The notes below the pieces were generated by a model, which ran no database searches, was not told the origin of the DNA, and saw only the letters and a list, made by a program, of their open reading frames with translations. A DNA stretch of 64,000 nucleotides from Tetradesmus obliquus (Eukaryota; Chlorophyta; Chlorophyceae; Sphaeropleales; Scenedesmaceae): the NCBI GenBank assembly GCA_030272155.1, contig CP126203.1, positions 1,798,001 to 1,862,000 of the forward strand. Direction: 5' to 3'. This document shows positions 1-64,000 of this stretch, one piece after another. The position numbers and the translations under genes are program-made. Numbering within the stretch: position 1 is the first letter of the stretch; every line of letters starts with the position of its first letter.

Positions 1-146
1 CTCTGTGCACTGGTTGCGCTGCTGTGGGGCGAGTCAAAGCCGCCACCATCACCCGCATCCTCCAACTCATGCACTGATGTGAAAAAGGCATGGCAACTGA
101 GCCGCAGCCTCACACTCACCTGCACACCCAAAGCTCCTGAAGGACG
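1..146 (-). repeat. Duplicated copy of the exon end at 253-345
   Basis: Bases 1-80 read on the minus strand as ELEDAGDGGGFDSPHSSAT, a diverged copy of ELEDAGDGGGFDTPRSSAS in the exon at 253-345. Bases 115-146 give a second fragment (ASFRSFGCAG, followed by a GTGAG donor) matching SFRSFHSAG plus its donor. These are downstream, donor-side copies of the exon end. Whether either is used as an exon cannot be told because the gene leaves the window. Confidence 0.6.
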
Positions 147-61700: not shown

Positions 61701-64000
61701 GTGTGCTGCCTAACGGGCATGTACATAATGAGCTTGCTGCTGCAGAAGCAGCAGCAGCCTCAGCATCCACAGAAGGCCCTGCAGCAGCACCAGCAGCGGG
61801 AGGTAGCAGTATTGCCGGAGGTCCTTTCGCCAGTTCAAACACACAGCAGCAGGCATTACAGCAGCAGCAGCAGCAACAGCAACAGCAGCAGCAGGGGGAC
61901 ATCTCACTGCGTGTGCGGGTGCCACTAAACAGCAGCTTCACTCACAGTGCAGGCAAAGGCCTAGGCAGCAGTGTCAGTGGCAGCTCAGAAGCAGTGCAGC
62001 CGCACGGCAGATCCTCGCCAGGCGGCATGCTAAACCGCATCCTCGGCAAAACCCTCAGCCGCCAGGGCAGCAATAACAGCGGCCCGATATCACCTGCTGC
62101 CACTTCAGCAGCTAACAGTGACGTGGCGCTGAGCGCGGGAGAGAACAGCATGACGCTAGCAGACACTGCAGCAGCAAACAGCAGCTTGCGGCGCCAGGAT
62201 GTGCCATTTGGGCAGCAGCACTCGCACAGAGAGCCTTCACATGCGGGTGTGTCTGAAGGCAGCAGTGCCACCAAGCTACAGAAGACTGCCACCTTTATGC
62301 AGAGGCTGACTGGCAGGGGCAGCGGCATGGGTACGATTGGCGGCAGCAGCAACTTGGGCGGCAGCACTGCAGCAAAGCAGGGCCCGATCAAGGTGCTGCA
62401 GCTGGCGGTGCGCATCGGCATTGCCTCTGGGCTGCTGCCGTACGGCTGTGACGTCAGCGAGTGCGCGGTGAAGTTCAGGGCCAAAGGTGAGCAGAAATGC
62501 ACGCCTATTTTGCTGTACCATGGCATTGCTTCGGGGCTGCTGCCATACGGCTGTGACGTTGTTCTGTCAGACGTCAGCGAGTGCGCGGTGAAGCTCAGGG
62601 CAAAAGGTGAGGGAAGCAACATACCTTGTTTTTGTATCAACAGTGTAGTGCTGAAAGGCTGTCCAATGTTGGGGCTGATGTTGGGGAGTGCGCGGTGAAG
62701 TTCTGGGCGAAAGGTAAGGTGAACAACATGCCCGCTGTTATGCACAATATTGTTGCAGAAGGTCCTGTGTCCAATGTTGCGCACAAGTGCAGCGCGTCTC
62801 GCTAGCGTACACCCCACCTAGGGCCTTGGTTCTTCATTCTGTGTCACTGAGCACCACTGCATGCTGCATGCTCTGCGCTGCAGAGCTGGTGTCCGATGTT
62901 GCCAATGGCGACCAGATTTCGCTAGCTCAGCCGCTCTCTGTTTTGTCTGCAGGCACTGCCGCCTCTCTTTGAATCCCTTGCCTGTGAAGCCCTCTGATTC
63001 TGCCTGGCGTCTCTGCTTGCTTGTGTGACTGGTGTCCGATGTTGCGAATGGCGGCCAGATCTTGCTTGACGAGCCCACCTTCCTGCTGGTGAAGGACAGC
63101 CTCACAGTGCTGGGCACTCTCCATCACTGCTTGAGAGACCCACAACACTGAGATCATGTGCTGCCTGCCGCCTGCCTGCACAGCTGGTGCCGGTTGCCGA
63201 CAATGGCGGCGAGGACTTTGCTGCTCTTTGTCAGCCATGTTGCTGCGTGCTGTGTGCTGTGCCGCAGAGCTGGTGTCCGATGTTGCGAATGGCGGCCAGA
63301 TCTTGCTGGATGAACCCACCTTCCTGCTGGTGAAGGACAGCCCCACGGTGCTGGGCACGGTCAACGACTCTTTGACTAACCCACAACACTTGACTTTGTG
63401 CTGCCGCCTGGCTGCACAGCTGGTGCCGGATGCTGCCATATGGCTTCCAGGACTCTGTAGCTCAGCTGCTCCTTGTTGAATACACAGGCATGTTGCTGCG
63501 TGCTGTGTGCTGTGCCGCAGAGCTGGTGTCCGATGTTGCAAATGGCGGCCAGATCTTGCTTGACGAGCCCACCTTCCTGCTGGTCAAGGACAGCCTCACG
63601 GTGCTGGGCACGGTCAATGATGCGGGCTTTGACGACAGCATGCTGCAGCAGCTGCTGCAGGCCAAGGTGGTGGGCCGGCTGCAGGAGCAGCTGGCGTGCT
63701 ACTGCCGATAGTGAGTTGCCGCAGCAGCAAGGAGGAAGAGCTGTGCAACAAGAGTGTGTGCCGGACATGATCAAAGTGCAGCAGTGTGTTTGTCCGGATG
63801 TGCTCACCAGCTCTTGCGCTGTAGATAATACATCAGCACATGCTCCTGCATATAAAACCAGCCCGCCCTGAAGTGACGTGTACTGCCGACTTGTGCTTTC
63901 ATTGCAGCGTGTCGCGTGAGCTGTCGTTTACCGGAGGCCTGCTGGATCGCGAGCCCCAGGACTACGACAACGACGCGATCGTATGCCACATGGGCGCGTT
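52737..64000 (+). CDS. LRR receptor-like class III nucleotidyl cyclase (runs off right edge)
   Basis: Fifteen exons so far: 52737-53273, 53727-53835, 54422-54511, 55192-55337, 55819-55867, 56555-56651, 57282-57463, 57736-57883, 58335-58409, 58961-59384, 60290-60643, 60869-60967, 61499-62486, 63521-63710, 63908->64000; all phases consistent, over 1190 residues. Signal peptide, a Cys-rich cap (WFGITCCKA), plant-type LRRs (LTDINLSNNFLTGTLPDWLGSL, LDLSNNDLTGPLP, LDLSRNQLTGALP), a second Cys-rich region, and one membrane helix (about 645-670, VTSAVAGLALLSALLLVAQL). The cytoplasmic cyclase starts KVHVSIVVTDVKDYTAL (metal Asp 709) and continues GYVLDQEGDSWTVAF (metal Asp 752). An Ala/Gln/Ser insert of about 280 residues precedes VRIGIASG and the GGQILLDEPTFLLVK part. 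The purine-site Lys is Asp (748) and the usual VN.AAR is SECAVK, so activity and cAMP/cGMP choice are open. Confidence 0.9.
53880..54104 (+). repeat. Two donor-side copies of LRR exon 2 end
   Basis: About 53886-53946 and 54048-54104 match DDAWGDMVHLKVLNL and donor of the exon ending at 53835. Confidence 0.9.
54630..55045 (+). repeat. Copies of LRR exons 3 and 4 in one intron
   Basis: LTDINLSSIFLTG (54630-54670) and TDINLSSNFLTS (54758-54795) are donor-side copies of exon 3. About 54970-55045 is an acceptor-side copy of exon 4 (GTLPNWLGSLANLEVLN); the true exon starts at 55192. Confidence 0.9.
55405..55580 (+). repeat. Donor-side copies of LRR exon 4 end
   Basis: About 55415-55460 (DIGKLSKL) and 55535-55580 (SIGRLRKLCEVNL) resemble the exon end at 55305-55337 and carry donor-like GTGAG or GATGAG. 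Embedded in (CAG)n. Confidence 0.75.
56205..56795 (+). repeat. Copies on both sides of LRR exon 6
   Basis: Acceptor-side copies of SSLIQLNLRANSL at about 56208, 56321 and 56405; donor-side copy of PVQQCAKLVQLDL at 56748-56795. The true exon is 56555-56651. Confidence 0.9.
57005..57110 (+). repeat. Acceptor-side copy of LRR exon 7 start
   Basis: Matches NNDLTGPLPVADHWRDLTTYQLSDNSFT with small frameshifts; the true exon begins at 57282 behind a (CTG)n acceptor. A third fragment (57155-57190) is seen near tgacctcatgcgcc. Confidence 0.85.
57484..58012 (+). repeat. Copies on both sides of LRR exon 8
   Basis: Acceptor-side copies of GVLGGLKTFLxASN at about 57487-57535 and 57605-57665; donor-side copy of LPAIRHIDMSxNNFFGILPAVALG at 57938-58003. 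The true exon is 57736-57883. Confidence 0.9.
58080..58120. repeat. Perfect 18-nt stem inverted repeat
   Basis: Arms 58080-58097 and 58103-58120 are exact reverse complements around a 5-nt loop. It sits in the intron between LRR exons 8 and 9, in an AT-richer patch. A related fragment (ctggtgtacc) occurs at 58191. Confidence 0.95.
58482..58875 (+). repeat. Copies of LRR exon 9 end and exon 10 start
   Basis: 58487-58530 repeats SNNSGITGIVPAQMG and donor (true exon end 58409). About 58767-58875 repeats (CTG)n, acceptor and YLFALQKAHFTNTSMTCSGII (true exon start 58961). Between them, 58440-58470 holds taggggttaggtttaggg. Confidence 0.9.
59440..59980 (+). repeat. Four donor-side copies of exon 10 end
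   Basis: About 59440-59507, 59668-59744, 59797-59865 and 59918-59980 encode QWMLDPVYFQYRGCSCLT variants with GTGAGC donors (true exon end 59384). Larger blocks including intron sequence (gctttcatccatgtactggc) are repeated too, so the unit is over 110 bp. Confidence 0.95.
60152..60205 (+). repeat. Acceptor-side copy of exon 11 start
   Basis: GCGEVWSANSTVLRC with a CTGCAG acceptor; true exon at 60290 reads GFGEVWSANNTILRC. Confidence 0.85.
61018..61340 (+). repeat. Copies of exon 12 end and exon 13 start
   Basis: 61022-61083 repeats DSWTVAF..EDAVAFSLQ and donor, missing part of the middle. 61298-61340 repeats VQQALARKAWIL with acceptor ahead of the true exon 13 at 61499. Confidence 0.9.
62515..62715 (+). 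repeat. Two donor-side copies of cyclase exon 13 end
   Basis: 62522-62607 encodes IASGLLPYGCDVVLSDVSECAVKLRAK, with five more residues (VLSDV) than the true exon end, and a GTGAG donor. 62683-62714 is a shorter, degenerate copy. The frame is open from the true exon through the first copy. Confidence 0.9.
62878..63375 (+). repeat. Three acceptor-side copies of cyclase exon 14 start
   Basis: About 62883-62925, 63027-63120 and 63265-63372 encode ELVSDVANGGQILLDEPTFLLVKDS variants, the last one over 100 nt and nearly identical to the true exon at 63521. The middle copy lacks a clear CAG acceptor. Confidence 0.95.

Follow-up and report, generated by a model that had tools for sequence, protein, structure and literature searches.

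Short duplications that cross a splice junction have been described before as single events. In the potato RdRp gene, one tandem duplication across an intron-exon boundary is reported to have made a new intron (PMC4974935). Here we analyze partial copies of exon ends in the introns of the green alga Tetradesmus obliquus, starting from a 64-kb window (the whole stretch of DNA shown above; contig 13, positions 1798001-1862000, of an assembly of 104.66 Mb in 17 contigs). The potato case resembles ours in being a direct local duplication of an intron end and an exon start with the splice signals included, but it is a single intron-creating event, whereas the genes studied here have each undergone many such events, and their copies lie within introns. 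AGGT-type intron gain likewise is a tandem duplication that leaves the mRNA unchanged; however, it needs AGGT in the duplicated exon and turns one unit into the intron, and no excess of that kind is found here. Introners share with our copies the recurrent, genome-wide change of introns, but they are copies of one element whereas each site here copies its own exon: only 7 of 122 spacers have a match elsewhere among the loci (E ≤ 1e-4), and the spacer-spacer matches at E ≤ 0.01 are 48 weak ones (14-35 nt among those listed). The splicing-decoy exons of OGT, which the accessible text of PMC12017769 describes as cryptic exons affecting intron retention, are also exon-like sequences with splice sites within an intron; unlike the decoys described there, ours are partial, decaying copies of the neighboring exon with a candidate effect only. 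In the open-licence literature, searched with broad terms and with most subscription journals outside it, we found no report of genome-wide arrays of partial exon copies. Single junction-spanning duplications are thus already known, but a genome with copies at the ends of about one sixth of the sampled introns is apparently unreported.

We sampled 304 kb, consisting of the window and 24 further 10-kb loci, and predicted genes with a simple two-strand hidden Markov model (HMM) gene finder self-trained on all 304 kb, which converged on the donor CAG/GTGAG and the acceptor TGCAG/G and called 618 introns clear of sequence ends with a median length of 215 nt. A BLAST comparison of the window with itself (E ≤ 1e-3, dust on; matches <2 kb apart taken as local) gave 129 high-scoring segment pairs, of which 120 were local direct, one local inverted and eight far, while five dinucleotide shuffles of the window, used as the null, each gave zero local direct, local inverted or far matches, ruling out chance similarity as the source of the repeats. 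A splice boundary was called in one or other copy of 366 of the 545 local pairs, compared with 258 expected from random shifts. Among the 235 reliable junction pairs, in which one copy lies within an exon having good coding signal outside the repeat, 211 follow the order that the preliminary description of this DNA had reported: exon-start copies lie upstream and carry the acceptor, and exon-end copies lie downstream and carry the donor. Removal of 24 pairs of other geometry and of overlapping copies left a strict set of 138 non-redundant copies (76 acceptor-side and 62 donor-side). Fifty-one of these are inside the window, in the kinase/TPR, SecA, RMND1-like, SelO and LRR-cyclase regions, so that the copies described there exist but the count of more than 60 does not hold by the strict rule. 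Nor are they present at most junctions, as had been claimed; copies occupy 41 of the 141 called window introns (42 junctions) and 113 of 648 overall, both denominators being inflated by copies that the HMM called as exons.

The 138 copies belong to 115 junctions, of which 94 have a single detected copy, 19 have two and two have three. Their exon parts are 29-114 nt long (5-95% range) and, in the window, 76-100% alike to the exon. The AG is retained in 69 of the 76 acceptor-side copies and the GT in 55 of the 62 donor-side copies, figures that are biased upward because matches were required to run at least 3 nt beyond the splice site. Ungapped identity is high in the exon part and over the splice site, but drops steeply from ~6 nt into the intron, and intron-side similarity is above 95% of the null in 71 of the 138 copies. 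Genome-wide DNA searches found five further copies of one SecA exon (near 25 kb in the window) and three of one SelO exon, all within ~1 kb, and for these two exons no second gene copy or homeolog was found elsewhere in the genome. The other matches of the SelO exon (≤59 bits, contigs 4 and 8) cover query bases 148-364, which are taken to be a CAG-rich serine stretch. The duplicated peptides of the HMM SecA and SelO products are absent from homologues of known structure (one alignment each). The window also contains many CTG/CAG runs, exonic as poly-Ala/Gln/Ser and also intronic, and some junction copies begin within such runs (e.g. at 45032 and 59323).

The copies lie close to their exons in direct orientation, the nearest offsets being mostly 90-160 nt (peak at 110-120 nt, second rise near 240 nt), and the upstream-acceptor, downstream-donor geometry is the automatic outcome of tandem duplication. 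We are confident that the copies arose by tandem duplication across splice junctions, as first proposed. Among nearest pairs with units ≤300 nt (n = 202), 161 combine exonic with intronic sequence (mixed), 23 lie wholly in introns and 18 wholly in exons, whereas same-length segments placed randomly on twelve repeat-poor loci fall into these classes at 0.366, 0.447 and 0.188; mixed and intron-only pairs thus stand at 161 to 23 compared with 0.82 to 1 at random placement. Because the HMM called copies as exons the mixed class is inflated, and 12 of the 27 intron-only pairs with units ≤1 kb touch recorded junction pairs; the strict 138 copies still far outnumber the 15 clean intron-only pairs. 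In pairs of ≥90% identity (n = 60), the match spans a median of 46% of the unit.

To describe how the copies diverge, we compared each real exon with its copy. The ratio of nonsynonymous to synonymous rates (dN/dS) was 0.26 (0.22-0.32) for the 138 copies, with dN of 0.061 and dS of 0.23. It was 0.25 in the window and 0.26 in the other loci, 0.28 (0.22-0.36) for the 76 copies left intronic by the HMM and 0.21 (0.11-0.34) for the 21 copies of SecA and SelO only, while reading these alignments in the other two frames gave 1.8 and 1.7. Since the differences are codon-structured in this way, an assembly or sequencing artefact is extremely improbable; the likeness of 76-100% between the window copies and their exons and the presence of strict copies in 16 of the 25 sampled sequences also argue against it.

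The preliminary description read the copies as duplicates in all stages of decay; under plain neutral decay, junction-spanning duplications ignored by splicing would simply mutate until unrecognizable. The duplication part of this account stands, and plain decay agrees with the junction geometry, with the stop codons of the copies (13 seen, 14.2 expected for the observed amino-acid changes), with their frame-breaking gaps (46 of 63, and 588 of 720 in introns) and with the codon-position differences of the unfiltered pairs given below. However, a simulated free copy beside a constrained exon gave a dN/dS of 0.42-0.55 (six runs, context-dependent rates from intron pairs), a plain-neutrality model gave ratios of 0.53-0.57 and 77 broken copies among the 138 where 40 are observed, and intron-only duplications are too rare. 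Intron similarity and synonymous rate are uncorrelated (Spearman -0.06, p 0.47, 138 pairs), with dS of 0.23, 0.23, 0.26 and 0.22 by intron-similarity quartile, the range of dS being narrowed because a copy is detected only if its exon part is alike. Free decay after duplication fits poorly with a divergence so decoupled and a dN/dS below the simulated neutral range, and we regard plain neutral decay as quite unlikely. As for the suggestion that the process is recent, age is not readable from exon identity alone: of 23 pairs with <5% exon divergence, 10 have an intron side that is detectably alike, a weak test in which 4 of the 13 failures have a match >100 nt beyond the splice site. A three-copy branch analysis of 25 triplets gave omega of ~0.12 on the real branch and 0.48 on the copy branches, values that leave the models unseparated, since some real-exon time may be contained in the copy branches.

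A low dN/dS could also mean that a substantial fraction of the copies functions, entering the mRNA as alternative or repeated mini-exons under selection. The 98 intact copies have a dN/dS of 0.20 (0.23 in the model comparison), amino-acid changes are absent from 11 of the 48 pairs with ≥4 synonymous differences, 62 of the 138 copies were taken for exons by the HMM, and a half-functional mixture model matches the broken count (38) and comes near the ratio for intact copies (0.20). The same mixture predicts a ratio of ~0.56 for broken copies, compared with the observed 0.41 or 0.37, and stop codons occur at the neutral rate. The exon-part length has no multiple-of-three bias (mod 3 = 48/44/46 for the 138 copies), nor has the offset, and of the partner splice sites ≤200 nt away, 137 are in frame 0, 109 in frame 1 and 127 in frame 2. 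For 16 of the 138 copies there is an equivalent intron, a count within the range for shifted registers (3-28), which gives no support to AGGT introns as a class; translated cassettes as a class are likewise unsupported by the length, frame and gap tests. As a class, the copies do not behave as frame-keeping mutually exclusive or repeated exons with both splice sites, though single cases may occur. Overall, the copies look untranslated as a rule, the role as alternative exons that was first suggested has little support, and we consider use of a sizeable share unlikely.

The pattern of broken and intact copies was compared with one further model, in which a short neutral copy path (mean 0.04-0.045) is joined to a longer constrained real-exon path (0.155-0.16); the copy-lineage path estimated from gap counts is 0.042 per site. 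This model gave 38-41 broken copies and ratios of 0.38-0.40 (broken) and 0.23-0.24 (intact), compared with the observed 40, 0.41 and 0.23, and among the models a copy lineage younger than its synonymous divergence appears to fit best. A short neutral path also fits the retention of splice dinucleotides in 124 of the 138 copies (biased upward, as above), which might otherwise suggest that the copies are untranslated splicing decoys that slow intron removal, in the manner of the intron-retention-promoting decoy exons of human OGT as far as these are described in the accessible text of PMC12017769. The decoy explanation leaves the excess of synonymous differences unexplained, and we judge it improbable. 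A copy younger than its synonymous distance would have been written from an exon version already drifted from that of today, and exchange among at least three copies of an array, or between diverged alleles, would yield such young copies with high dS.

These considerations lead us to a reading in which junction-spanning tandem duplication is followed by exchange of the exon part with the real exon, and to which we give close to an even chance. Short stretches spanning a junction, typically 90-160 nt, would duplicate in tandem, the step backed by the geometry. Splicing would tolerate the duplication: the real exon would still be joined through the splice site on its outer side, and the duplicated end, together with the acceptor or donor that it carries, would land within the intron. 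Untranslated extra copies would decay through stops and frameshifts, and their exon part would repeatedly be swapped with the real exon via gene conversion or unequal crossing-over, and the intron parts would meanwhile diverge. As the sequence that selection keeps intact, the real exon would serve as master copy and as the homology anchor on which the arrays would grow, shrink and be refreshed. A further step, exon-anchored concerted evolution in which the intronic copies form a reservoir that passes sequence to the real exon as well as taking it up from there, is more tentative, and we think it somewhat unlikely.

Several observations weigh against duplication with exchange. No exchange event was directly seen, and differences within exon parts are barely clustered (p < 0.05 in 11% of 82 pairs), a weak conversion footprint. 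Two-copy exchange in one lineage would, by our argument, not lower dN/dS below 0.5; at least three copies or strongly diverged alleles are needed, yet 94 of the 115 junction clusters have one detected copy. The gene models themselves are predictions of a self-trained HMM. The unfiltered set of 234 pairs, in which protein repeats and false exons are included, differs by 7.8, 8.5 and 17.6% at the first, second and third codon positions, nearly the expectation for a free copy, so that the low ratio depends on the filtered set. The 40 broken copies have a dN/dS of 0.37 with an interval of 0.29-0.51 that touches 0.5, and these copies may therefore be neutral. The parameters of the short-path model were hand-set after the data were seen, which makes it a check of consistency rather than a fit; moreover, its synonymous rates (0.23 for broken and 0.18-0.19 for intact copies) differ from the observed 0.20 and 0.20. 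In 34 pairs whose likeness extends over most of the unit, dS (0.24) exceeds the divergence of the intron (0.16), as expected if the real exon has an excess of synonymous changes but not if the exon copy is generally conserved. Finally, pairs with ≥85% identity and ≥70% of the unit matched (n = 17) comprise 13 mixed, two intron and two exon pairs; pairs with this much of the unit still alike already show the bias toward junctions, and therefore a birth or fixation bias likely acts as well.

Outside the window the pattern is widespread but uneven. Strict copies occur in 15 of the 24 other loci and are absent from nine, which bears out the idea of a genome-scale pattern, though an uneven one. With the window and its two flanks left out, coverage by local repeats is lower in 10-kb loci from larger chromosomes (Spearman -0.72, p 0.0002, 22 loci), and strict copies show the same trend (Spearman -0.50, p 0.02, 22 loci), although chromosome position is confounded with size because 17 of the 22 loci share the coordinate 1.5 Mb. 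More exchange on small chromosomes would account for this distribution. One locus (L021; C14:1500001-1510000) has a GC content of 49%, 9% called exon, and 74 far direct and 38 inverted self-matches; it looks like a transposon-rich block, and this transposon-like locus was included in the correlations and left out of the exon/intron enrichment counts.

The copies in the window and the gene regions are listed in the table. The window has a GC content of 52-64% per 2 kb, the published value for T. obliquus being 57% (PMC5966456). The HMM fused neighboring genes in its models. Pfam named five of the eight predicted pieces (protein kinase, TPR repeats, RMND1/DUF155 protein, LRRs and a weak cyclase domain), and the other three pieces sent to Pfam had no match. 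Adjoining the SecA gene, 33334-34132 is an array with periods of ~165-245 nt and repeated CAAACCCTAGGCC, which we take to be a plant-telomere-like motif; it is partly called exon by the HMM, a doubtful call. An ATA microsatellite of ~37 units (36784-36893) lies at the called intron start of the RMND1-like gene, and an intron of the LRR gene contains a perfect 19-nt inverted repeat with a 5-nt loop (58079-58121), perhaps a small hairpin element. Tandem repeats of ~66-69 nt at 2608-2955 and 5198-5816 lie in called coding sequence and are protein repeats, not junction copies.

Table. Gene regions and copies of exon starts and exon ends in the 64-kb window (window coordinates).
Feature	Position	Strand	Remark
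Whole window	1-64000		120 local direct repeat matches, 141 called introns
SecA gene region, approximate	17900-32900	-	homology anchor, PDB SecA, 1.5e-107
RMND1/DUF155 gene	35566-39317	+	HMM model, Pfam
SelO gene region, approximate	42277-50700	+	homology anchor, PDB SelO, 5e-77
LRR + guanylate-cyclase-like gene region, approximate	52000-64000	+	Pfam; runs off window
Exon start 3008-3058	3122-3174	-	
Exon start 6465-6607	6593-6740	-	
Exon end 7015-7060	6904-6946	-	
Exon start 9019-9136	9726-9835	-	78% alike, doubtful
Exon start 12310-12731	12594-13016	-	TPR region, may be real protein repeat
Exon start 16966-17050	17093-17179	-	7 synonymous, 0 nonsynonymous differences
Kinase exon end 17680-17759	17307-17386	-	
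SecA exon end 23865-23955	23574-23666	-	
SecA exon end 23869-23996	23679-23806	-	
SecA exon end 24954-25130	24705-24881	-	9 synonymous, 1 nonsynonymous differences
SecA exon start 25188-25691	25340-25831	-	copies (array)
SecA exon start 26574-26644	26656-26725	-	
SecA exon end 29573-29796	29361-29547	-	
SecA exon end 29719-29796	29568-29645	-	
SecA exon start 29831-29880	29929-29978	-	
SecA exon end 30595-30666	30181-30252	-	
SecA exon end 32607-32673	32159-32225	-	
Exon start 37600-37797	37340-37546	+	
Exon end 37819-37880	38096-38157	+	
Exon start 38845-38906	38719-38783	+	
Exon end 39249-39321	39377-39449	+	
SelO exon start 43198-43352	43085-43254	+	
SelO exon start 44437-44514	44314-44391	+	acceptor AG lost
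SelO exon end 44553-44616	44724-44797	+	
SelO exon start 45130-45220	45032-45120	+	
SelO exon end 45295-45337	45414-45456	+	
SelO exon end 45248-45336	45486-45574	+	
SelO exon start 46471-46678	46223-46418	+	
SelO exon start 47742-47782	47426-47466	+	
SelO exon start 47727-47813	47492-47584	+	
SelO exon end 48614-48742	48874-48988, 49126-49235, 49430-49558	+	three copies; strict 51 includes last only
SelO exon start 50060-50165	49790-49888	+	
Exon start 50833-50883	50714-50766	+	
Exon end 53772-53882	53879-53989, 54045-54131	+	two copies
Exon start 55189-55265	54971-55047	+	
Exon end 55293-55462	55412-55582	+	
Exon start near 56549	56263-56356, 56400-56446	+	two copies
Exon end 56610-56670	56748-56808	+	
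Exon start 57246-57365	56981-57099	+	
Exon start 57726-57789	57478-57541	+	
Exon end 57816-57889	57938-58012	+	one-base gap
Exon start 58937-59025	58781-58869	+	
Exon end 59323-59393	59442-60019	+	array of copies, period ~119; three of strict 51
Exon start 60282-60321	60149-60188	+	
Exon start 61478-61545	61279-61343	+	
Exon start 63496-63560	62857-62923	+	
Exon start 63270-63620	63029-63367	+	

Gene prediction in this genome may insert duplicate exons, as our self-trained HMM did. If the exchange is confirmed, the arrays would offer a natural system for gene conversion inside genes, and a model for intron lengthening and for splice-site choice amid strong nearby rival sites. If the intronic copies do act as a reservoir, only protein-neutral changes would survive the exchange, and exon ends would gain synonymous changes faster than by point mutation, most strongly on small, recombination-rich chromosomes.

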